Assembly (NCBI GenBank): GCA_019694165.1
Contig: JAIBCL010000001.1
Location: 434,001 to 498,000 of the forward strand
From: Verrucomicrobiaceae bacterium
Lineage (GTDB): Bacteria; Verrucomicrobiota; Verrucomicrobiia; Verrucomicrobiales; Verrucomicrobiaceae
DNA: 64,000 bases
Reading direction: 5' to 3'
The translations under genes and the position numbers were made by a program. This document shows, in pieces, positions 42,927-53,723 of the stretch. Below the pieces are notes generated by a model. The model had not been told where the DNA came from. It searched no databases and saw only the letters and a program-made list of their open reading frames with translations. Position 1 is the first letter of the stretch. The number at the start of each line of letters is the position of its first letter.

Positions 42927-43316
42927 ATGCATCGCAAAATACTCGTGCTCGCCGGAGCTGCGTTCGTCGCAGCGTGCGCCGTTTTCTCCGCTACCTCGCT
43001 CAAGGCCGCGGACGGAGACAAGGCCACTGAGGAGTTCATGAAGAAATATCACAAGGCTCCGAAGGGCACCGATCCGATCTGCAAAAAAGCGGTCGGCGGC
43101 ATGGCCTCGGCGGAGGAACTGGCCGGTCTCCTGGCCGGCTACCAGGCCATGTGCGGCACAAAGCCGCCGAAGGGCGACGTGGGTCCCTGGCAGGAAAAGT
43201 GCAAGGCACTGATCGCCGCCGTGAAGGGTCTGCAGGCCAAGGACGCGACTGCTGGCGAGGCTTACAAAAAGGCGGTGAACTGCAAGGCCTGCCACTCGGA
43301 GCACAAGCCCGATTGA
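42927..43316 (+). CDS. Small periplasmic cytochrome c, haem site at the C-terminus
   Basis: A 129-aa protein with signal peptide (to about ATSLKA). The single haem motif CKACH is at 119-123, immediately before the C-terminal end HSEHKPD. A C-terminal CxxCH after a helical bundle recalls cytochrome c'/c556-type proteins. Three further Cys (52, 76, 92) are unusual. It is a paralogue of the protein at 51818-52177 (CKACHSAHKPEK). It probably transfers electrons or binds a small ligand in the periplasm. Confidence 0.82.
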   Translation: MHRKILVLAGAAFVAACAVFSATSLKAADGDKATEEFMKKYHKAPKGTDPICKKAVGGMASAEELAGLLAGYQAMCGTKPPKGDVGPWQEKCKALIAAVKGLQAKDATAGEAYKKAVNCKACHSEHKPD

Positions 43317-43427
43317 GCGGCATCATGACACGGCCTTGCCGGGCGGACTGCCCTGTCTTACGCGACATGAAGCGCGCGAAGGCAAAGACGACGTATTCTT
43401 CCCCGCAGGCCGAGACGTCATGAATGT

Positions 43428-43458
43428 CCCTCCGCCCGGATACCGGCCGGACGGAGGG
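43428..43458. repeat. Structured palindromic repeat, copy 1
   Basis: A 31-bp near-perfect hairpin, arms CCCTCCGCCCGG and CCGGACGGAGGG around ATACCGG. The core is conserved with copies at 45781 and 51686; downstream sequence is diverged. It lies between the cytochrome gene and the subtilase gene. Confidence 0.75.
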
Positions 43459-43557
43459 TTCTGAATTCAGGCCAGCCAGATAGGATGCCGGGCTTCCCAC
43501 CAGAGGCCCTCCGTATCTGAGTGCGGCCTGGTGAAGTTCGACGTATCGATTTTTACA

Positions 43558-45696
43558 ATGCACCGGAAGCGCCGCCATGTGAAGGGTATGTGGTCCGGTC
43601 TGGCTGCGCTGGCGATGTGGCTCGCCACCCAGGGGCATGATGAACCGCACGCTCACGCAGGGCCAACGGCAAACGAGGATGGCACAAGGCACGGCGAGAC
43701 GCGGAGCGGTGCCCGTGCGAAACGCACGAACGCCGCTTCATCCGGATTCGCTGCCGGCATCGCGGTTGGCGCGTCAGCCAGGGCGTCGCGCGGAGGGAGG
43801 GATCGCACCGGGAATGCAGACGGGTCGTTTTCTCCGGTGATCTTGCGGCCAGCGCCTGCGACCACGCCAGGAGATGATGCATATCATCCGGGTTTGCGCC
43901 CACGCTTCGCAGCGCCGAAAGATCCCCTGACTGTTCCGCCGGGCCGCATGTTGCGCTTGTACATGAAGGTGGCCGATACGCTCCGCGCACGCGCCCTCGC
44001 CGACGGGCGGCTGGCCATCGAACCAGGAACCGCGGTGAACGCGGATGATCTCATGCAAACGGCGCGGGATCACGATCTGCGCTTCAAGCGCGTCCACTCC
44101 GTTTCCGACGCGGACTTGAACTCCTTGGAACGCCGTGCCGCGGTGCGGACCGGCATGGCGCAGCCTGATGCTGCCGGCCTTGTGGAAGTGGTGCCAAAAG
44201 GAGCTGCTTCACGGGCACAGATGATTGGACTGGCGCGAGTGCTTCACGCGCTCGCGGCCGTGGAGTTCGCCGAACTCGAATCGCTCGATGCACCATCGCC
44301 GCCCCCGGCGTCCGACATTGCGCCGCCCACCCCCTTGCTCAGCGGCGGCCAGAGCTACAGGAGCGCGGGAAGCGGCATCGATGTTGATTACGTCTGGAAC
44401 GCGCTCGGCGTCCGCGGGCACCCATCTGTGCGCCTCACGGACTGCGAGTATTCGTTCAACGCGACGCATGAGGATCTCGCCGGTCTCACTCAAATCCAGC
44501 CTGGCGTGGTTTCGATGTACACCGCCTTTGGCGACGATCACGGCGCGGCGGTGCAGGGAATGCTGGGTGCGGGCGTGAACGGCTACGGCATGACGGGCTG
44601 TGCACCGGCATGTGCCGCATGGTTTTTTCCGGAGTTTTCCACGCTCGCCAGCGGCAGCCAGAACCGCGCAGCCTGCGTGACGGCGGCCATCGCCGCATCC
44701 GCGCCTGGCGATGTGGTGCTGCTGGAAATGCAAGCCACAGGCGCGCAGGGCGGCTACGGCCCCGCGGAGTACAGCCCGTCCGTCTTCAACGCGGTGAAAC
44801 TGGGAGCCGACGCCGGAGTCATCATCATCGGCGCGGCGGGCAATGGCGCGGAGAATCTGGATGACGCGGCCTATGCGGCGTACCGTTCCCGGGGAGACAG
44901 CGGAGCCATCATCGTCGGCGCGGGCACCGCCGCACGCGCGCCCTTGAGTTTCAGCACACATGGCCTGCGGGTGAACCTGCAAGGCTGGGGGGAGGGCGTA
45001 TCGACCACGGGTTACGGAACGCTGGCGATATATGGAGGCGACGCGAATCAGAAGTACGCCTCCGACTTTGGCGGCACCAGTTCCGCGGCGGCCCTCGTCT
45101 CCGCCGCAGCGGTGCTCTTGCAAAGCGTCGCGGTGGAGATTTGCGAGACGCGACTCAGCCCCGCGGAGATGCGCGCGCTGCTTGTTTCATCGGGAAGGGC
45201 GCAGACCGGGGATGTGACCAGGAACATCGGCCCGCTGCCAGACCTCCGCGCCGCGGTCGCCGCCCTTGTCGGTGCGCATCCGCCGCCGTTTTCCACCCTG
45301 CGAAGCTGGGCGCTCTTCCACTTCGGCACTCCGTCTCCGCCACCCGATGCCGATCCCGACGGCGACGGCGCGCCGAACCTCGTGGAGTACGTGCTGGGCA
45401 CCGATCCGCGATCGGATGCAGGCGGCGAGATGGCGGCAAGCGCTCCGCGTCTCACCGCGGCGTCATCGGACGGCACACCGCTGCTGGTGTTCGAGTTTCA
45501 CCATCCGCCTTCCCGCGCAGGCGCGGCGTGGAGTGTGCAGCAGTCGCCTGATCTCACGCCGGGTTCGTGGCTCGATGTCGTTCCCGGCACGGGCGGGGCA
45601 ACGATGAATCAGGAAGGCGGCGTATGCCGTGTCACGCTTCCGCGAAGCCCTGGCGCGGCGCGCGGCTTCGTTCGTCTGCATGTCACGGCACCATGA
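43558..45696 (+). CDS. Secreted subtilase-family (S8) serine protease
   Basis: A 712-aa protein with an N-terminal membrane segment (WSGLAALAMWLATQG) and a long low-complexity pro-region. The catalytic triad can be assigned: Asp in VRLTDCEYSF, His in DDHGAAVQG, Ser in FGGTSSAAALVSAAA. The oxyanion Asn is in AAGNGAEN. Pro of the usual GTSxAxP is Leu here. A calcium-binding DPDGDGAPNLVEYVLGTDP segment and a C-terminal beta-sandwich seen in other verrucomicrobial secreted proteins follow. An upstream GTG at 43531 is possible. The gene is flanked on both sides by the structured repeat in the same orientation. Confidence 0.85.
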   Translation: MHRKRRHVKGMWSGLAALAMWLATQGHDEPHAHAGPTANEDGTRHGETRSGARAKRTNAASSGFAAGIAVGASARASRGGRDRTGNADGSFSPVILRPAPATTPGDDAYHPGLRPRFAAPKDPLTVPPGRMLRLYMKVADTLRARALADGRLAIEPGTAVNADDLMQTARDHDLRFKRVHSVSDADLNSLERRAAVRTGMAQPDAAGLVEVVPKGAASRAQMIGLARVLHALAAVEFAELESLDAPSPPPASDIAPPTPLLSGGQSYRSAGSGIDVDYVWNALGVRGHPSVRLTDCEYSFNATHEDLAGLTQIQPGVVSMYTAFGDDHGAAVQGMLGAGVNGYGMTGCAPACAAWFFPEFSTLASGSQNRAACVTAAIAASAPGDVVLLEMQATGAQGGYGPAEYSPSVFNAVKLGADAGVIIIGAAGNGAENLDDAAYAAYRSRGDSGAIIVGAGTAARAPLSFSTHGLRVNLQGWGEGVSTTGYGTLAIYGGDANQKYASDFGGTSSAAALVSAAAVLLQSVAVEICETRLSPAEMRALLVSSGRAQTGDVTRNIGPLPDLRAAVAALVGAHPPPFSTLRSWALFHFGTPSPPPDADPDGDGAPNLVEYVLGTDPRSDAGGEMAASAPRLTAASSDGTPLLVFEFHHPPSRAGAAWSVQQSPDLTPGSWLDVVPGTGGATMNQEGGVCRVTLPRSPGAARGFVRLHVTAP

Positions 45697-45780
45697 TGAC
45701 GGAGCGTGCGAACGGGCTTCCAGCGGTCATCAATCGCGCCCGTGAGTCATGGCATTTCATCGCACAGCGTTCATGGATGT

Positions 45781-45870
45781 CCCCCGCCCGGATACCGGCC
45801 GGACGGGGGTTCCTCATCCATGAAGCGACCGGATCTCCGTCACGAGGACCGGTCTCTTTTGAGGAAATTG
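45781..45870. repeat. Structured palindromic repeat, copy 2
   Basis: It has two hairpins. The first is 45781-45809 (CCCCCGCCCGG with CCGGACGGGGG); the second uses GACCGG and CCGGTC around a loop containing TCCGTCACGA. Base changes relative to the other copies are on both sides of the stems. It lies between the convergent subtilase and barrel genes. Confidence 0.75.
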
Positions 45871-45890
45871 GTCGCGCACAATCATGGCGG

Positions 45891-47015
45891 TCAGAACTTC
45901 CATGTGACGCCCGTGTGGAGTGAGAAGTCGGAGCTTGCACGCGTGAGGCCGAAACCTGCTCCCAGCCTCAGCGTGACATTGTGCGCGGGTGTGTAAAAGC
46001 CGCCCACCACCGCCTCCTGCATGCCATCGGCGGCAAAGTCACCGATGGCCTCGACACCGAGCGCCAGGGAATGCGTGAACTGATGGCGCACACCGGCGGC
46101 ATAGCCCCACGCCGGCGCGGCTCCCTCGGGCGAGATGCCTATGAGATTGAAAATCGCCTTCGTGCGGCCGAAGTCAGCCTCGATCACGAGGCGTCCGGTC
46201 CACAGGTTTTCGTCGTGATTGTGGATGCTGCCGCTGTAGTCGATCCCGGGGTCATTCACCACCCGTGTGACGTGCTTCACCTTTTTGACCTGGGTGCGGG
46301 TGCCGGTCGTCCCCCCTGCCGACGCCGTACTCGTGGGAGTGGACGTCGTCGTCTCGGTGACGGCTTGTGTAGTCGTCACCGTGCTCGTCTCGGCACCATC
46401 ATGGCCGGCATGTGGCGGCGGCGTGGGGCAGTCCACGTCCACCGTGGGATCACACATGCTGCCGGAGCCGCCTGATCCAGAAGTTGAGGACGTGGTGGTC
46501 GTCGTCGTCACCGTCTTCGTCGTGGTGGTGGTTTCCGTCACCTGCGTCGTCTCCACCACCTGGGCGCTGGCGGGAATCGTATATGGAACCTGCTCGTAAA
46601 CTTTTTCGTAGCTCACCACGCTCACCTTCTGGTTCAAGTGGCCGGCTGCCCCGTCCACGATCTGCCGCCCCGCCGACAGGCTCACATGCAGCCATGAACT
46701 GGCATCCGGCGGGGTCAGTTGGAAGTGCAGGCGTGGCGTGACGGCGGAGTACTTCCAGCCGTCCCCTTCGTCGTTTCCTCCGGCGCTCACGCTCAGCGCC
46801 ACGCGCGGTGCCAGCGTCATCATGAAGGTGGATTCCGTGCTGAAAGCGTCCAGCCCGTTGTACTTTTCCCAGTCGAATGAGGCGGAAGCACTGCCGCTGA
46901 ATGGCGGCGGCATCTCGTAGTCTTCGAGCAGAAAAAAATCATTGCCATGGTGCGCCAGCCCGCCCGTGGTGAAGGCGAGGAACGCACAGAAAATGACCGG
47001 CGTGATATGGTTCAT
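45891..47015 (-). CDS. Outer-membrane beta-barrel-like protein with Thr-rich loop (paralogue a)
   Basis: A 374-aa protein starting at MNHITPVIFC with a signal peptide ending GGLA. The mature N-terminus HHGNDFFLLEDYE is nearly the same as HHGHDFILLEDWH in the paralogue at 52233-53072. Alternating strands (VALSVSAGGNDEGDGWKYSAV, then LVIEADFGRTKAIFN split over two places) and a terminal aromatic Phe (VTWKF) indicate an outer-membrane barrel. A long Thr/Ser-rich segment (about 165-265) containing CDPTVDVDC replaces the His-rich loop of the paralogue. Function is unknown; metal or redox transport is guessed from the neighbours. Confidence 0.7.
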   Translation of the reverse strand: MNHITPVIFCAFLAFTTGGLAHHGNDFFLLEDYEMPPPFSGSASASFDWEKYNGLDAFSTESTFMMTLAPRVALSVSAGGNDEGDGWKYSAVTPRLHFQLTPPDASSWLHVSLSAGRQIVDGAAGHLNQKVSVVSYEKVYEQVPYTIPASAQVVETTQVTETTTTTKTVTTTTTTSSTSGSGGSGSMCDPTVDVDCPTPPPHAGHDGAETSTVTTTQAVTETTTSTPTSTASAGGTTGTRTQVKKVKHVTRVVNDPGIDYSGSIHNHDENLWTGRLVIEADFGRTKAIFNLIGISPEGAAPAWGYAAGVRHQFTHSLALGVEAIGDFAADGMQEAVVGGFYTPAHNVTLRLGAGFGLTRASSDFSLHTGVTWKF

Positions 47016-47093
47016 GGCGGGAAGGGCGATCACAGCCCTCGCGCCTGCCGCATGACGGGACATGCCGCAGGCGGAGCAGCCGCGTTTTTCTCA

Positions 47094-47828
47094 TCAGGCA
47101 TGCCGGCGGCGGCGGGAGACCGCGCCAAGACCCGCCAGCACGAGGAGCGCGGCCCGCCCTGGCTCGGGGGCCGTGCTTGTGGTGAAGGTGGCGCTGTAAC
47201 CCTGCCGCGGCGGGCTGGTGAGCGAAGGTGCATCACTGCCGAGCACGATGGTGTAGTGACCGGCGGAGAGCAGCCACGATTCCGTGACGGAAGTGAGAGT
47301 GCTGTTCGCCGTGTGATCGATATAGCTCAGGTCCTCGGCCCAGATCGGATTCCCTGTATTGGCGTATGTGTGGTGATCGTCCGGCGGTGCAAACGGGTCG
47401 TAGCCCAGTGCGAGCGCGGCGGCAGAGGTCATCACATCGTTGTCCCAACCCGACCAGATGGTGAAGGATGGATACATGAAGGCGATGTCGGCGAAGCCAC
47501 CGACATTGCCAGAGCCAAAGTAAGGCACGCTCGAGTCACGCTGCATGAGCAGCGTGAGCGTGGTGGCGCTGGTCACATCGAGCGCGATCCAGTTTGACGT
47601 GTGCGTCCAGCCCTCGCCTCCTCCGGGGGCGATGCCCTGATCCTGCCAGCTCCAGGCGCCGACGTGGCTCTTGAAGCTGCCGGTGTCGTCACCACCAACG
47701 GTGACGTAGCCGTAATAGCCGATGCCGCCTGCGTTCGCGTCGCCGGTGACAAAGGTAAACGCCCGTGCCGTGGAGCCAGCGCTTAGCGCGGCAACGGCGG
47801 CGAGCATGACGAATGTGTATCTTCTCAT
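47094..47828 (-). CDS. PEP-CTERM sorting-domain protein
   Basis: A 244-aa exported protein with N-terminal signal (MRRYTFVMLAAVAALSAGSTARA). The C-terminal anchor TAPEPGRAALLVLAGLGAV ends with RRRR, which is the PEP-CTERM signal recognised by exosortase. The body is beta-rich (TGSFKSHVGAWSWQDQG, YTIVLGSDAP) with no catalytic motif. It lies between the YVTN/peroxidase gene and the barrel gene on one strand. Exosortase is not in the window. Confidence 0.82.
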   Translation of the reverse strand: MRRYTFVMLAAVAALSAGSTARAFTFVTGDANAGGIGYYGYVTVGGDDTGSFKSHVGAWSWQDQGIAPGGGEGWTHTSNWIALDVTSATTLTLLMQRDSSVPYFGSGNVGGFADIAFMYPSFTIWSGWDNDVMTSAAALALGYDPFAPPDDHHTYANTGNPIWAEDLSYIDHTANSTLTSVTESWLLSAGHYTIVLGSDAPSLTSPPRQGYSATFTTSTAPEPGRAALLVLAGLGAVSRRRRHA

Positions 47829-47876
47829 GTTTCGTGTGTCTTTGGTTTGGTTGTGTGACGGAGATTCATTTCGGTT

Positions 47877-50486
47877 TCACCAGGTGCGGCGGAGGCGGTA
47901 AAAGCGCGCGGGCGTGGCGGCGGGCGGGTCATCGACCTGGATGGACGCGCCGTTCTGCGTGCGCGGCAGCGTGACGGCCTGCCACGTCGCGAGGTTCGTG
48001 CTCGACTCCAGCACCCAGCCGGAATCCGCGGCTGGCCAGGCGAGACGCACCACGCCGTTCACGTTCGCGACGCCGAGCGATGGCATCGCCTCCTGCGCAT
48101 TGCGCGTGCCATTGGCGTTGCGGTCATTGCTGAAGCGCGCGCCATCGCCGGCCAAGACGCCGAGGAAGGTGAGCGTATCGGCTCCGGTGAGCGAGTTGAG
48201 AAGCGTGGTGCGGCTCACCGAAGCCTCAGTTGCATCATCACTGGCGTAAGTCGCAGTGCCGGACGCATAGAGATAGCTGCGCAATTTTCCGCCGACGACA
48301 CCGCGCGCGACGAGATTGCAGTTCGCCACTGCCTGGCTCTCCATCGTGGCGAGGTCGGCGGTGATGGCGCTGTTCGCACGGTTGGCGGCGTTCACCGTCA
48401 CGTTGTAGCCGACGGCAGGCGCGACGCCGGTGTCAAAGCACTGCACATAAGCAGCCACATCGTAGAACTCCTGCAGCGTAACAAAATTTTGCAGGTCGTA
48501 GAAGTGCTGGATGGCCAGTTCGTTGCCCGTGCCGTCCTTCAGCGTGCCAAAGCCGCTGACATTCACCGCGCCCGCGTTGCGGCTGAATCCGAGCCGTTGA
48601 TATACCGTGCGCAGGTGCGGCGTCTTCACCGGCTGCGTGGAGCCGACGATGGTGTTGAGGTCGATGTTTTGATCCGATCCCGTCGGCAACTGGTGGCAGG
48701 TGACGCAGTGTGATTTTTGGTGGTCAATGAACATCAGGCGGCCGTTGTTCGGATCACCACCGTTGATGGTGGCGGGCAGCGCGCGCGCGAGGCTGCGATG
48801 CGGGTTCGGATGAAGCGCGAGCGCGAGCAGGGACTCGGCGAGCGCATCCATGTCGCCAGCCGATGGAATCGATCCGGCCATGAGCGCGCTGAAGGTGACG
48901 TTGAAGCTCTGGATCGTCGGCCGGTCTCCCCGCCAGTGAAAGATGGGCGCTGGAATGGTGGCGGGCTGGTTCGACGGCGCTTTGAGGCCGCGCAGCGTCT
49001 GCGTGACCATCGGCCCCTTCATCGGATGCAGCGCGCGATTGTAGGCCGTGAGGTCGTGGAGGGAGTTGTTGTAGCCGCTGACGTTCACCATCGAGCCGCC
49101 GGGATCGCCGAGATCCCACGCGATGCCGTCGCGGTCACCATCAGGATGGCAGACGGCACATGACATGGTGCCATTGCCCGAGAGGCGCGCGTCGAAGAGG
49201 AATCCCCTGCCCTCCTTGATCGTCGTCGGCATCGGGTCGCGGCTGCCGGCGGGGACTTCTGCCAGGACGCTCGCTGCGGCGGCGTCCACGACACTGACGG
49301 TGTTCGCGAGCTTGTTCAGCACAAACAGACGCGAGGCATCCGCGCTCAGTGCGAGACCGCGCGGACCGCGCATTCCACGCGCGCCATTCGCCGTGACGGG
49401 ACGCACATCGACACGCGAGAGCACGACGCCGGCAGACGAAACTTTGGCGACACGATCCGAAGCAAACGCCGCCACCCAGCCGTGCGTGCCGTCATTCGCA
49501 AAGACCAGCGCCGTCGGCTGCGCAAGCGCGATGGCCTGCGCGGCAGTGTTGGGAAACAGCGTGTAATTGAAACCGGGATTGAGATCGAATGCCGTGACCG
49601 TCGTGGCTGGCAGCGCGATCTTGCTCAACCGGTGGTCGGCGAAGTGGCCCTTCAGCACGGGCTCGAAGCGCACGAGATTTCGCGCATCGGTGTTTGCCAC
49701 CCAGAGTTCGCCAGTGGTCGGATGCACGGCGAGGTCGAAGAGATTCGTGCCCGTGTCGCTGAGGTAACGCGTGACGGTCTGCGTGCTCGTGTTGATCTCC
49801 GCCACGTCGTTGTCGAGCGTGGTCCACGTCACGCGCGAATCATTGGCAGCGACGATCAGCGCAACCTGTGGCGCAGCGGGGAGAGCGCCATTCGTCGGCG
49901 CGGGCTGCGCGGGTGCGGAGGCCGCGGGAAGAACGGTGGTGCGATTGCCGGACAAATTGAAGGCGGCATAGACCTTGGTGCCATCGGCGCTCGCGGCCAA
50001 TGCGCGTGGATAATTTCCCGTGAGCGCGATGGTGCCGAGGTCGGCGAGCGTCGTCGCATTGTAAACCTTCACCGCATTGCTCCGCGCGCAGGTGACGAAG
50101 GCTTTGCCATTGGCGAAGACAACATCCGCCGGCTCGTCGGGGCAGCGAAGCGTGGCGATCACAGCTCGTTGCGAGAGCGATACGATGGACACGCTATCGG
50201 ACAGCTCGCTCACCACCCATACCTCGTCGTTCGTACGCGCACGCAGCGACACGGGCTCGAGTCCGATGGGAATCTCATCCGTGAGCACGGGCGCGGGGTT
50301 TGCCGCGTTTGAGACATCGAAGACCGAGAGCCGGCTGTCGGGCGTGTTCAGCGCGAGCAGCCTCGTGCCGTCCGGCGTGAGGCCGATGGGATGCACCTGC
50401 CGCGCCTCGAAGTGCTGATAAGTCTGCGCGCGCACCGCTGAGGCGGCGCAAAGAAGCGCGGCTGTGATGAAGACGATGCGTTTCAT
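47877..50486 (-). CDS. YVTN beta-propeller/di-haem cytochrome c peroxidase-like protein
   Basis: An 869-aa secreted protein with signal peptide ending SAVRA. Residues about 30-430 are YVTN-type propeller repeats (LSVFDVSNAANPAP, NDEVWVVSELSDSVSIVSL). Two haem motifs follow: CAVCHPDGD near 443 and CVTCHQLPTG near 593. Their arrangement resembles MauG/cytochrome c peroxidase proteins. The last 60 residues (DSGWVLESSTNLATWQAV) are the C-terminal sandwich common in Verrucomicrobia. It probably handles peroxide or oxidises a partner in the periplasm. The start overlaps the stop of 50483-50797 by 4 bp (ATGA), so the two are translationally coupled. Confidence 0.85.
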   Translation of the reverse strand: MKRIVFITAALLCAASAVRAQTYQHFEARQVHPIGLTPDGTRLLALNTPDSRLSVFDVSNAANPAPVLTDEIPIGLEPVSLRARTNDEVWVVSELSDSVSIVSLSQRAVIATLRCPDEPADVVFANGKAFVTCARSNAVKVYNATTLADLGTIALTGNYPRALAASADGTKVYAAFNLSGNRTTVLPAASAPAQPAPTNGALPAAPQVALIVAANDSRVTWTTLDNDVAEINTSTQTVTRYLSDTGTNLFDLAVHPTTGELWVANTDARNLVRFEPVLKGHFADHRLSKIALPATTVTAFDLNPGFNYTLFPNTAAQAIALAQPTALVFANDGTHGWVAAFASDRVAKVSSAGVVLSRVDVRPVTANGARGMRGPRGLALSADASRLFVLNKLANTVSVVDAAAASVLAEVPAGSRDPMPTTIKEGRGFLFDARLSGNGTMSCAVCHPDGDRDGIAWDLGDPGGSMVNVSGYNNSLHDLTAYNRALHPMKGPMVTQTLRGLKAPSNQPATIPAPIFHWRGDRPTIQSFNVTFSALMAGSIPSAGDMDALAESLLALALHPNPHRSLARALPATINGGDPNNGRLMFIDHQKSHCVTCHQLPTGSDQNIDLNTIVGSTQPVKTPHLRTVYQRLGFSRNAGAVNVSGFGTLKDGTGNELAIQHFYDLQNFVTLQEFYDVAAYVQCFDTGVAPAVGYNVTVNAANRANSAITADLATMESQAVANCNLVARGVVGGKLRSYLYASGTATYASDDATEASVSRTTLLNSLTGADTLTFLGVLAGDGARFSNDRNANGTRNAQEAMPSLGVANVNGVVRLAWPAADSGWVLESSTNLATWQAVTLPRTQNGASIQVDDPPAATPARFYRLRRTW

Positions 50487-50797
50487 GAGCTGGCGCGTTT
50501 GAAGCTGATGATGCTGTAGGACGAGGCGCTGGCACCGAGCGACTGGATGGCGGCCGCCTTCGTGAGCTGGTCAGAGGCGGACTCGACCTCGAAGCGAGTG
50601 ACGGCGGGCTTGCCCTCCTTTTTGAGCTTCGGACTTTTGACGCCGGACAGACCCATGCCGGTGGGTTGATGGCTGGCAAAGCAGACGGTCATATAGACGG
50701 TCTGGCCAGCCTGCTTGCGGACTTCGAGCGCTGCGTCCTGCGAAGACGCGCGAGAGGAAAGGAGAACAAGAGATGCGAGTACAAAAATATTTTTCAT
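50483..50797 (-). CDS. Small exported protein with a broken cytochrome c motif
   Basis: A 104-aa protein with signal peptide MKNIFVLASLVLLSSRASS. The sequence GQTVYMTVCFASHQPTGMGL matches the haem region of small cytochromes c, in which it would read CxxCH. Here the second Cys is Ser42, encoded AGC instead of TGC. The tail (KSPKLKKEGKPAVTRF) does not continue as a cytochrome fold. Either the gene is degenerate, the haem is bound by one Cys, or the base is a sequencing error. It overlaps the peroxidase-like gene by 4 bp. Confidence 0.65.
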   Translation of the reverse strand: MKNIFVLASLVLLSSRASSQDAALEVRKQAGQTVYMTVCFASHQPTGMGLSGVKSPKLKKEGKPAVTRFEVESASDQLTKAAAIQSLGASASSYSIISFKRASS

Positions 50798-51147
50798 GAG
50801 GGAAACAGAAGGATGGAAGCCGGGCATGGCCACGCCCTGGAGAAAGATCCCGATGGCTGTCGAGCAGCCTCGCGCACACATGACTTGCCACGATCATTTC
50901 ATGACAAGCGGCACAGGTTTGGGCCTGCGTCCGCATGTCAGCGTCTCTTTCGCTCAAGCGCAGGGGGCGAGGGAATGAGAATGCGCTCTAAGACGCGCCA
51001 GGACCTTGTCGCGCACGGCTTTTCAAGCACGGCATCAAGCCGACACGGCGCGCCACGTTGAATGTGACTGCCCGAAGGTTGTCGGCCATGCCGTCCAGGC
51101 ACGCCGACTTCCCGCAAAAGCCGACGATCGCGGTCAATCTGGCACGT
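50798..51147. other. Intergenic region
   Basis: A 350-bp spacer. A minus-strand frame carries a lone CAACH motif around 50920, preceded by MRTQAQT, but it runs into the start region of the next gene in another frame and lacks a cytochrome context; I do not call it. No other gene is seen. Confidence 0.35.
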
Positions 51148-51161
51148 TCAGATTGATCGCG
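51129..51161 (-). terminator. Hairpin over the stop codon of the HPCPxC gene
   Basis: A 13-bp stem with one mismatch (51129-51141 with 51149-51161) and a 7-nt loop overlaps the stop codon at 51148-51150. It could act as a transcript end although a T-run is absent. Confidence 0.4.
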
Positions 51162-51549
51162 GAGGCGGACTAGGCGGCCGAACCGACCACTGCGCACCCG
51201 ACTGCGATGGCGGCGCAAAATCCGCCTTCTCGCAGCCGTGGCTCCACCTTTGCGCCAGCACTCCGGTTTCCGGACAGGTGCTGAACCACTTGATGAGTTT
51301 TTCGGAATCCTTCAGAGGCGGAGCGGGTGCCTGCTTCTCCTCCTTCTCGCGCGCCTCGGCAAGACGGCAGCACATCGGGCATGGATGCTCGCCGTCAAAA
51401 GTTTCCTTCATGCCCTGCACGATGCCCTTCTCCTGCGTGTAGCTCCGCAGCATCTCCGCCCAAGCCACAACCTGCAGCAGCCCCCAGTGGCCGCCTGCCA
51501 GATGCAGGGCGGTCACGATGTAGATGAGGGACTGGAGGAACTTTTTCAA
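51148..51549 (-). CDS. Small membrane protein with HPCPxC motif (paralogue a)
   Basis: A 133-aa protein with a TTG start (TTG AAA AAG). One N-terminal membrane helix (about 7-33) includes HWGLLQVVAWAEM. Then TFDGEHPCPMCC carries Cys57, Cys60 and Cys61. Two more Cys are at about 92 and 106. It is a paralogue of 53337-53723, where HW, AW and the HPCPxC positions are at identical residue numbers. The Cys/His motif suggests metal or haem binding at the membrane face; function is unknown. Copy 3 of the palindromic repeat lies between it and the cytochrome gene. Confidence 0.7.
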   Translation of the reverse strand: MKKFLQSLIYIVTALHLAGGHWGLLQVVAWAEMLRSYTQEKGIVQGMKETFDGEHPCPMCCRLAEAREKEEKQAPAPPLKDSEKLIKWFSTCPETGVLAQRWSHGCEKADFAPPSQSGAQWSVRPPSPPPRSI

Positions 51550-51685
51550 ATCAAATGGTCCGCACGGATTGCAGGCATCATGCAGCAGTCGCCGCCGCCA
51601 GTCGCCTCATCACTGGCGAAATCACGGACGGATTTTGTCTGCGTTGACATGTCCGGAGAAGTCTTTTCAATGGGTTTCGGAAAGT

Positions 51686-51778
51686 CCCCCCCGCCCGGAT
51701 ACCGGCCGGACGGAGGGTTCCTCATCCATGAAGTGACCGGGCTTCCGTCACGAAACCCGGACTCTTTGAGGAAATCCG
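51686..51778. repeat. Structured palindromic repeat, copy 3
   Basis: It has the same two-hairpin layout as copy 2. The first hairpin is 51686-51717; the second uses CCGGG and CCCGG around a loop containing TTCCGTCACGA. The change from GACCGG/CCGGTC to CCGGG/CCCGG on both sides keeps pairing. Confidence 0.75.
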
Positions 51779-51817
51779 GAGCGGCGGACGGCGACGAGCC
51801 GTCCGCCGCAGTTTTGA

Positions 51818-52177
51818 TCACTTCTCGGGCTTGTGGGCGCTGTGGCAGGCCTTGCAGGCTCCGGCGTTGATGAGCTGGCTGACCGCCTGCTTGTTGCCGT
51901 TGGCGACGGCGTCGGCGGCCTTGATCAGCGCATCCACCTTCCGGTCGAACGCAGCCTGGTCACCACGCGGCGCCTTCTTGCCGGTGAGGTTTTTCACACA
52001 TGCGGCGAGCTTCTTGGCATCGGCATCCGTGCCTTTGCCCTTGGTCACCTTGTTGTAGAGGCTGTCGTCGCCTTTCATGGCCGCCTTCATGACGTCCTTG
52101 ATTTCGACTGCGCCGGCGCTGCCCGCGAAGAGCAGGGAGGCGGAGATGGCTGCCAGGAGGAGTTTGGTTTGCTTCAT
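51818..52177 (-). CDS. Small periplasmic cytochrome c, haem site at the C-terminus (paralogue b)
   Basis: A 119-aa protein from MKQTKLLLAAIS, signal peptide ending SAGA. The single haem motif CKACH is at 108-112 and the protein ends HSAHKPEK. It is a paralogue of 42927-43316, matching in the C-terminal CKACHSxHKP and overall helical character. It follows the barrel gene by 55 bp on the same strand, so these are probably co-expressed. Confidence 0.82.
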   Translation of the reverse strand: MKQTKLLLAAISASLLFAGSAGAVEIKDVMKAAMKGDDSLYNKVTKGKGTDADAKKLAACVKNLTGKKAPRGDQAAFDRKVDALIKAADAVANGNKQAVSQLINAGACKACHSAHKPEK

Positions 52178-52232
52178 GTTGTCAGGTTGTGATGTGGGTT
52201 TGGGTTGAAGCGCCGATGTTGGCGGAAGCAGA

Positions 52233-53072
52233 TCAAAAACGCCAGACAAAACCCGTGCGAAGGGTGAAGTCGGGAGTTTCCTCGGTAAGGCCGAAACCGG
52301 CGCCGAGTTTGAGCGTGAGGGAGTGGACCGGCTCGTAATACACGCCGCCCACCAGTTCGTGCCAGCCGTGGCTCTCGAAGTCGCCAAGCGCCTCGATGCC
52401 GAAGGCGAGCTGCTCGCGGACCTTGTGGCGCACGCCGGCGGCGTAGCCCCAGCTCGCGCCGCCGTCGCTGCGGGCCACACTGATGAGATTGAACACCGCC
52501 TTGGTCGCGCCGAAGTCACGCTCGATGATGAGGCGGCTCATCAGGGCATCACTGTCGTGATTGTGCACGGAACTGGCATGCGAGTGATCATGCCCCATGT
52601 GCTCGTGATCGTGCCCGCCTTGATGTTCGTCAGCGTGATCGTCGTGGTGCTCGTCACCATGCTCATCCGCCGGCTCTTCGCCGTCGGCCCCGGCCGCGCC
52701 GTCCGCCCATTGGTAGCCGACGCTCAGCGCCACTTTGAAAGGCAGGTCCGAATCGGGACCGGTCACCTGGAAGTGTGCGGCCGGCATCACGGCATTGTAG
52801 TTCCAGCCGTCACTCTCGTCGCGGAAGTCCACGTCGAGGCTCAATGCCACACGAGGCGCGATGCCGAACATGAGACTGGGGGCGAGGCCGTATTCGTCAC
52901 CGTCACCTGAGTGCTCCCACTCGAAGTTCGTGAGCAAATGACCCTTGCCGGGAGCAGCGAGGTGCCAGTCCTCGAGCAGGATGAAATCGTGTCCGTGGTG
53001 AGCGTGAAGGGAGATGGTGGTGAAGGCGAGCGCAGCGAGCGCAAGGTGGCGTGTGAATGAGAAGGCGATCAT
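52233..53072 (-). CDS. Outer-membrane beta-barrel-like protein with His-rich loop (paralogue b)
   Basis: A 279-aa protein starting at MIAFSFTRHL. After the signal peptide the mature start is HHGHDFILLEDWHLAAPGKG. The barrel strands and terminal Phe (FVWRF) match the paralogue at 45891-47015. A strongly His/Asp/Glu-rich segment (residues about 155-195; HGDEHHDDHADEHQ, then GHDHEHMGHDHSHAS) occupies the position of the Thr-rich loop of the paralogue. Such a loop would bind divalent metal ions. It stands 55 bp upstream of the cytochrome gene on the same strand. Confidence 0.75.
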   Translation of the reverse strand: MIAFSFTRHLALAALAFTTISLHAHHGHDFILLEDWHLAAPGKGHLLTNFEWEHSGDGDEYGLAPSLMFGIAPRVALSLDVDFRDESDGWNYNAVMPAAHFQVTGPDSDLPFKVALSVGYQWADGAAGADGEEPADEHGDEHHDDHADEHQGGHDHEHMGHDHSHASSVHNHDSDALMSRLIIERDFGATKAVFNLISVARSDGGASWGYAAGVRHKVREQLAFGIEALGDFESHGWHELVGGVYYEPVHSLTLKLGAGFGLTEETPDFTLRTGFVWRF

Positions 53073-53336
53073 GTGGTTGGAAATGTTTGGTGGTCGAGGT
53101 TGAATGATGAATGAGGGATGGTCTGAGCGGATCGGCTGGCGGCGCGGGCCCACGGCGCGCGAAAGCTGTGGTCGAGGTCCATTGCCCCCTTCTGTCCCGC
53201 GTGTGCTCATCAGGCATGTGAACCCGGGAGGGCGGCAATCATGCTGGAATGCAGTGCCACACAGACGCAGCGCAAGCTGCGCGGGAAGCAGGTGGTGGCT
53301 TGGATGGTGGGCCGTGGCCGGCGCGCACGGGCCGGC

Positions 53337-53723
53337 TTACGCCACGCGCGGCGGAGGCACCGGCGGGACCTCGCTACGTTTCACAGCACGGTCGGCTGTG
53401 ACCGGACACTCCGGTACGGCGGGCTTCGGCAACACGAGTGTCTCGACAACGACCAGCGCCATTTCGATCTTCTTGATCGCGCCGGCCTTGGACTGTTTCG
53501 ACTTGTTGTCCCGGTCGCTCCTCGCGCCCGCGTCCACCATTTTGCACAGCGGGCAGGGATGCGCGCCGTCGAAGGTCTTCTCCAGCGCCTCGCCGATGGT
53601 GGCGTCTTTCGAGTAAGTCACCACCATGCTCACCCATGCGGCCGACTGCACCAGCGTCCAGTGCAGTCCGAGGGACAGCACCAGTGCCATGACAATGCAT
53701 GCGCGGCAGAATGAGGATCGCAT
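53337..53723 (-). CDS. Small membrane protein with HPCPxC motif (paralogue b)
   Basis: A 128-aa protein; start at 53723 (MRSSFCRACI) is chosen because the N-terminal helix then begins at once. The helix (about 8-35) contains HWTLVQSAAWVSM. TFDGAHPCPLC carries Cys57 and Cys60, as in the paralogue at 51148. A Lys-rich stretch and a Pro/Val tail (PKPAVPECPV, then PPVPPPRVA) follow. Family identity is unknown. The barrel gene starts 264 bp further along the same strand. Confidence 0.68.
   Translation of the reverse strand: MRSSFCRACIVMALVLSLGLHWTLVQSAAWVSMVVTYSKDATIGEALEKTFDGAHPCPLCKMVDAGARSDRDNKSKQSKAGAIKKIEMALVVVETLVLPKPAVPECPVTADRAVKRSEVPPVPPPRVA

Follow-up and report, generated by a model that had tools for sequence, protein, structure and literature searches.

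What might two copies each of three unrelated protein families be doing side by side in the genome of a Verrucomicrobiaceae bacterium? The stretch analysed here, referred to as the window, comprises 64,000 nucleotides of assembly GCA_019694165.1 (contig JAIBCL010000001.1, positions 434,001-498,000, forward strand), and the locus in question occupies positions 42,927-53,723 of it. A first-pass annotation had described this locus as the co-duplication of a module formed by a barrel, a small cytochrome with a C-terminal haem and a membrane protein with the motif HPCPxC. Each family was present in exactly two copies in the bacterium's own genome (7.8 Mb, 66 contigs, 96% complete), and because all six genes lie within one 10.8 kb segment the observation is more than chance. 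The core of the locus, however, is not this three-protein module. It is the pair of genes encoding a propeller-dihaem enzyme (47877-50486) and a CorA-like protein (47094-47828), both of which lie between the two halves and had been passed over. The whole is probably a CorA/MopE-type locus for acquiring copper, controlled by two copper sensors that act as nascent chains and belong to a new family.

The genes are listed below in their order on the minus strand, followed by cytochrome A, which is on the plus strand while the other five of the six family genes are on the minus strand.

53337-53723, minus strand: HPCPxC-B, a putative copper-sensing leader peptide with an export signal, CPLC and a C-terminal PPVPPPRVA; heads the barrel B-cytochrome B unit.
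52233-53072, minus strand: barrel B, predicted to form a 12-stranded barrel in the outer membrane; the mature protein probably begins with HHGHDF, and residues 127-170 are a His-rich insert.
51818-52177, minus strand: cytochrome B, a small exported monohaem cytochrome with a C-terminal CKACH, of the same subfamily as the cytochrome of locus L053.
51148-51549, minus strand: HPCPxC-A, a putative copper-sensing leader peptide with an export signal, CPMC and a C-terminal PPSPPPRSI; heads the half-A operon.
50483-50797, minus strand: remnant open reading frame in which a cytochrome c, cut off after its N-terminal half and with CFASH in place of the haem motif CxxCH, runs into the C-terminal half of an HMA-domain protein.
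47877-50486, minus strand: propeller-dihaem enzyme, a beta-propeller fused to a MauG/CorB-type di-haem enzyme, with CxxCH at residues 443-447 and 594-598.
47094-47828, minus strand: CorA-like protein, CorA/MopE-like and predicted to bind Cu(I), with a PEP-CTERM tail; W74, H76 and H153 correspond to Kyn62, H64 and H114 of CorA.
45891-47015, minus strand: barrel A, an outer-membrane barrel, the last gene of the half-A operon.
42927-43316, plus strand: cytochrome A, a small exported monohaem cytochrome with orthologues directly upstream of HPCPxC genes in four other loci.

An open reading frame at 43531-45696 separates cytochrome A from barrel A. The most likely starts are 53072 for barrel B (not 53210), 52177 for cytochrome B (not 52519) and 53723 for HPCPxC-B.

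A profile of ten relatives of the CorA-like protein was compared with all PDB sequences, and at E<=10 only CorA of Methylomicrobium album (4bz4, 1.6e-4) and MopE of Methylococcus capsulatus (2vov, 5.7e-4) were returned. The protein was also modelled with AlphaFold from an alignment of 25 sequences (predicted local distance difference test, pLDDT, 85). CorA and MopE occupied ranks 1-4 when this model was searched against the PDB with Foldseek, and structural alignment with VIA-align gave Z values of 14.7 for CorA (over 142 residues) and 13.5 for MopE, the next best being 10.3. The lower Foldseek matches were discarded as relatives, being generic beta-sandwich domains with smaller Z. The copper site of CorA consists of Kyn62 (derived from Trp), His64 and His114 (PMC3912023). 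In the profile alignment their counterparts in the window protein are W74, H76 and H153, and none of these three varies among 25 homologues.

CorA is a surface-bound, copper-repressible protein produced at low copper; the adjacent CorB, a di-haem protein resembling MauG, has been proposed to make the kynurenine (PMC3912023). The make-up of the window pair matches that of CorA and CorB. The propeller-dihaem protein combines YVTN-type propeller repeats with a CCP_MauG domain (32.1 bits, above the Pfam cut-off of 25.6); both of its CxxCH motifs were invariant in 13 sequences, and MbnH (6e1c) was among the PDB matches of its profile. Copper and a CorA-type chemistry are well supported for this locus, and the metal or redox theme at the periplasm and outer membrane that the first-pass annotation had suggested is supported and can be sharpened to copper. 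As far as the sequence goes, the CorA-like protein may also be expected to form kynurenine and to bind Cu(I).

It is improbable, although conceivable, that the locus serves another metal such as zinc or nickel, or detoxification instead of copper uptake. PEP-CTERM exoproteins also serve zinc uptake, as in the case of ZepA (PMC10957091), His-rich barrels would fit several metals, and not all CutF-like leaders are copper-specific (PMC9973294). Against this stand the retention of the CorA/MopE fold with all three copper-site positions, the presence of SCO1 and HMA genes in the full operon, and the production of CorA under low copper (PMC3912023). That the PEP-CTERM protein might be ZepA itself was also considered and, going by published description, is not supported: the fold of ZepA was reported to be without known relatives, whereas the window protein has the CorA fold.

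Contigs from GTDB were scanned with the propeller profile, and 240 relatives were found in Verrucomicrobiota and Planctomycetota. In the 80 loci that were kept, a CorA-like gene was recorded in 51, HPCPxC in 50, a barrel in 36, SCO1 in 10 and a small cytochrome in 5. Across Verrucomicrobiota one gene order recurs, from HPCPxC, with or without cytochrome c, SCO1 and HMA genes, through propeller-dihaem and CorA-like to barrel. Its short form (HPCxxC, propeller-dihaem, CorA-like, barrel) was seen in other genomes of the order (L039, L040 and L041), and it is intact in the cultured, non-pathogenic strains Roseibacillus persicicus KCTC 12988 (L183), R. ishigakijimensis (L187) and Haloferula sp. BvORR071 (L134). 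In G235 the HPC gene is followed by two cytochrome c genes, SCO1, HMA, propeller-dihaem, CorA-like and barrel. In G066 the order is HPC, cytochrome, HPC, cytochrome c, SCO1, HMA and TonB receptor, and no barrel was found.

These arrangements account for the remnant at 50483-50797. Its haem motif has changed from CFACH to CFASH, and SCO1, which lies between the cytochrome c and HMA genes in G235 and G066, is missing from the window. The remnant is the product of a deletion in an older, longer operon resembling that of G235. Such damage could mean that the copper operon is a relic in the course of being lost, with its remaining genes no longer used together. The broken haem motif, the fusion and the loss of SCO1 all fit that explanation, but we regard it as very unlikely, as none of the propeller-dihaem, CorA-like, barrel and HPCPxC genes is truncated or has lost a conserved residue, and several relatives have the operon without SCO1 and HMA.

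Several arrangements elsewhere were also recorded. Between two propeller-dihaem genes, a CorA-like gene was seen in L148, L157, L161 and L162 (Akkermansiaceae-type), with no HPCPxC found in the stretch scanned. Relatives of the propeller-dihaem protein with 40-45% identity were present in the Planctomycetota loci L184, L185, L188 and L192-L209, where no HPCPxC, CorA-like or barrel gene was recognisable nearby with the models used here. Some relatives of the CorA-like protein are 970-1600 residues long and have three or four CorA domains in tandem (L177:11372-15424, L166:11321-15298, L164:11313-15320 and others), and the GWxH copper-site motif is present in most of these domains. They are possibly high-capacity copper proteins.

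The likenesses on which the idea of a duplicated module was built are real. The barrels at 45891 and 52233 carry HHGNDFFLLED and HHGHDFILLED (HHGxDFxLLED) and are 47% identical overall (BLAST, 5e-41 and 5e-30). The cytochromes at 42927 and 51818 end in CKACHSEHKP and CKACHSAHKP, both CKACHSxHKP (BLAST, 4e-12). In the two HPCPxC proteins, counted from the starts at 51549 (A) and 53723 (B), the motifs HW (21-22), AW (29-30), TFDG (50-53) and HPCPxC (55-60) stand at equal residue numbers (BLAST, 5e-18). Two copies of each family at one place in the genome, and barrels that are near relatives, are what duplication of the three as one unit would leave behind. Phylogeny contradicts it. HPCPxC-A falls inside a 53-member group with support of 100/99, and HPCPxC-B outside it. 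Barrel A groups with the barrels of L131 and L176 (98/93), and barrel B next to that group (90/92). From these two trees it follows that the pairs arose at different times.

The cytochromes point the same way. A and B are only 31% identical; copies that are 53-59% identical to cytochrome A adjoin HPCPxC upstream in L139, L146, L150 and L156, and the copy in L053 is of the cytochrome B type. By sequence the two belong to different subfamilies. Cytochrome A, moreover, lies outside the operon on the other strand, and in G066 two HPCPxC genes and one cytochrome stand in a row without a barrel. In the HPCPxC pair and in the cytochrome pair the two copies are old paralogues, and joint duplication of the three families can be given next to no credence. 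Compared with cytochrome c', a four-helix fold with CxxCH at the C-terminus, the small cytochromes have the motif at that end, but the Pfam score was 13.6 bits (cut-off 26.5) and the PDB profile match to cytochrome c' was weak (E 1).

That the three families belong together was nevertheless upheld. In many Verrucomicrobiota a conserved operon has HPCPxC on one side and the barrel on the other, and in other loci the cytochrome is directly upstream of HPCPxC, so that all three share a copper context. The first-pass annotation had also considered that they might stand singly in unrelated contexts in most genomes. Half of this was borne out: cytochromes occur in members of the family that lack the barrel, and HPCPxC heads many operons with neither barrel nor cytochrome. 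Even these operons, however, are concerned with metals (TonB receptor, PepSY, SCO1).

HPCPxC was found in 246/387 sampled genomes of the order, in 43/50 genera, and is far more widespread than the barrel (15/388 in the phylum sample) or the cytochrome (7/388). It had been called a membrane protein, and looks more like a regulatory leader than like a working protein of that kind. Among 90 distinct proteins CxxC is present in 89, and the last 15 residues contain PP in 90/90 and PPP in 80/90 (controls, 4/131 and 2/131). The spacing between CxxC and the C-terminal proline motif is 66.3 +/- 3.5 residues. The downstream genes encode TonB receptors, PepSY_TM proteins, a cytochrome c-SCO1-HMA series or the propeller-CorA-barrel set; for the 51 HPCPxC genes adjoining a propeller gene, the next downstream family gene was an operon member in every case (51/51). 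In L112 (6837-7883) and L117 (6767-7834) a gene for a Phenol_MetA_deg-type channel follows HPCPxC in place of the His-rich barrel.

The same layout is known from CruR and CutF. These DUF2946 proteins are exported, carry CxxC or CxxxC together with a proline motif at the C-terminus, act during translation and stand first in copper operons, among them operons with TonB receptor, PepSY, Sco and MbnPH-like genes (PMC9426467, PMC9973294). Arrest of CruR at RAPP has been demonstrated in vitro (PMC12992588). The neighbours of HPCPxC (SCO1, HMA, TonB receptor, PepSY) are the partner list published for CruR (PMC9426467). By analogy HPCPxC probably works like CruR and CutF, and would then be a nascent-chain copper sensor. 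A broader proposition seems to us evenly balanced: that the HPCPxC proteins are arrest peptides which sense metal and form a second such family of independent origin (PPxPPPR-type, so far only in Verrucomicrobiales), and that they control a CorA/MopE-type copper scavenging which is widespread in Verrucomicrobiota and in which some relatives have a copper protein with up to four CorA domains.

HPCPxC might instead be a stable, signal-anchored periplasmic copper chaperone, whose CxxC passes copper to SCO1, the CorA-like protein or a receptor and whose proline run is structural; the locus would still be one of copper acquisition. The strong conservation of CxxC and the QxxAWxxMxxxY core across 88 HPCPxC proteins goes beyond the need of a bare leader, and the neighbours are metal proteins under either interpretation. 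On the other hand, no more than a few residues separate the polyproline from the stop codon in 90/90 proteins, and HPCPxC, like CruR, heads operons of differing content (TonB receptor, cytochrome c-SCO1-HMA, propeller-CorA, barrel). We consider the chaperone rather unlikely, although it is worth keeping in mind.

Membership of HPCPxC in DUF2946 was rejected, as Pfam, hhalign and plasmid tblastn all gave no match. A search of plasmid pMOL30 for a reference DUF2946 protein returned sub-threshold matches only. Genuine DUF2946 proteins ending in RAPP (L214-L228) were detected above the cut-off in 9/289 genomes, in other Verrucomicrobiota families. They are mostly outside the order in which HPCPxC is common, and one family seems to stand in for the other.

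The model of barrel B (pLDDT 80) has 12 strands, and its best Foldseek matches were FapF (2.1e-9) and a COG4313 channel (6.1e-6). By sequence the barrels had no Pfam match above the cut-off and nothing convincing in the PDB, and a scan of genome contigs with the alignment of the two barrels returned no match. H26, G27, D29 and F30 of HHGxDF and H170/H172 were invariant in 19 sequences. The HHGxDF motif would start directly after the likely signal-peptide cleavage site. From barrel topology, with both ends periplasmic, the His-rich segment that joins strands 5 and 6 should be an outer loop. The barrel would likely serve as a copper channel or receptor.

Under the proposed copper-acquisition mechanism, the CorA-like protein would be exported, its PEP-CTERM tail would direct it to the surface, and it would bind Cu(I) through two His and a Trp oxidised to kynurenine. 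The oxidation would be carried out by the propeller-dihaem enzyme, encoded just upstream, as proposed for CorB. For the transport step, we infer that the His-rich, 12-stranded barrels move copper, or the cargo of the copper protein, across the outer membrane. The small cytochromes may supply the di-haem enzyme with electrons or be reductants of Cu(II). Both gene runs are headed by HPCPxC, which would act during its own translation and export: once outside the ribosome its CxxC would sense copper, and PPxPPPR at the C-terminus would or would not stall the ribosome, thereby setting the expression of the genes behind, which would probably be off at high copper.

A number of results weigh against this mechanism. 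The CorA-like protein scored 15.4 bits against PF18252, under the 27-bit gathering cut-off (a relative, 13.0 bits), and by sequence it is distantly homologous and falls outside the limits that Pfam sets for the family. No match of HPCPxC to PF11162 (DUF2946) was found with 8 members at E<=10, and hhalign of 88 HPCPxC proteins against 9 DUF2946 proteins of the phylum gave a probability of 4.4%, in the signal-peptide region only. Stem-loops of the CutF type 3' of HPCPxC showed no clear excess (mean z -1.24, controls -0.88), and the C>G bubble of CruR was not enriched in the 3' regions (0.088 against 0.121 in controls) or in intergenic sequence (0.085 against 0.206), so that there is support for the downstream step of neither CutF nor CruR. 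The role given to the barrel is drawn from its fold, His-rich loop and neighbours. Finally, with its cytochrome c/SCO1/HMA segment decayed, the locus may work only in part.

The closest known systems are CorA-CorB of M. album BG8 and MopE-SACCP of M. capsulatus, which share with the window the fold, the positions of the Trp/Kyn-His-His site and an adjoining gene for a MauG-like di-haem protein. The window protein is about 17-18% identical to CorA and MopE and has a PEP-CTERM tail, and its relatives repeat the CorA domain up to four times per protein. Unlike CorB and SACCP, the enzyme has an N-terminal propeller, and the locus adds a barrel and an HPCPxC leader. The host, judging from its family, is not a known methanotroph. 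With MbnP-MbnH and the MauG-type enzymes, the window enzyme shares two CxxCH haem sites and CCP_MauG, but its fusion is about 870 residues long (longer in some relatives) and its partner is CorA-like, no match to MbnP having been found. HPCPxC resembles CruR of Bordetella pertussis and CutF of Rhodobacter capsulatus in its export signal, Cys pair, proline motif before the stop and fixed spacing, and in heading copper operons (TonB receptor, PepSY, Sco, MbnPH-like genes). It differs in having PPxPPPR (PP[R/K/Q]) and not RAPP, in a spacing of about 66 and not about 45, and in a core of its own, QxxAWxxMxxxY...TFDGxHPCxxC. The barrel is like FapF and the COG4313 (Phenol_MetA_deg-type) channels in its predicted 12 strands and has its best Foldseek matches among them, but is 10-14% identical to them and has a His-rich loop and the HHGxDF mature N-terminus.

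No description of a CorA/MopE-type operon in Verrucomicrobiota, or of the HPCPxC leader family, was found in the open-licence literature. Scavenging by CorA/MopE with protein-bound kynurenine has been described for methanotrophs; here a full operon of this kind is found across a phylum of ordinary heterotrophs, for which cultured hosts exist. HPCPxC, if it acts as proposed, would be the second copper-sensing nascent-chain family besides DUF2946, and one that is invisible to searches with RAPP/RGPP motifs or PF11162. Its many members would allow a direct test of whether a switch made of a C-terminal polyproline and a metal-binding Cys pair has evolved repeatedly.
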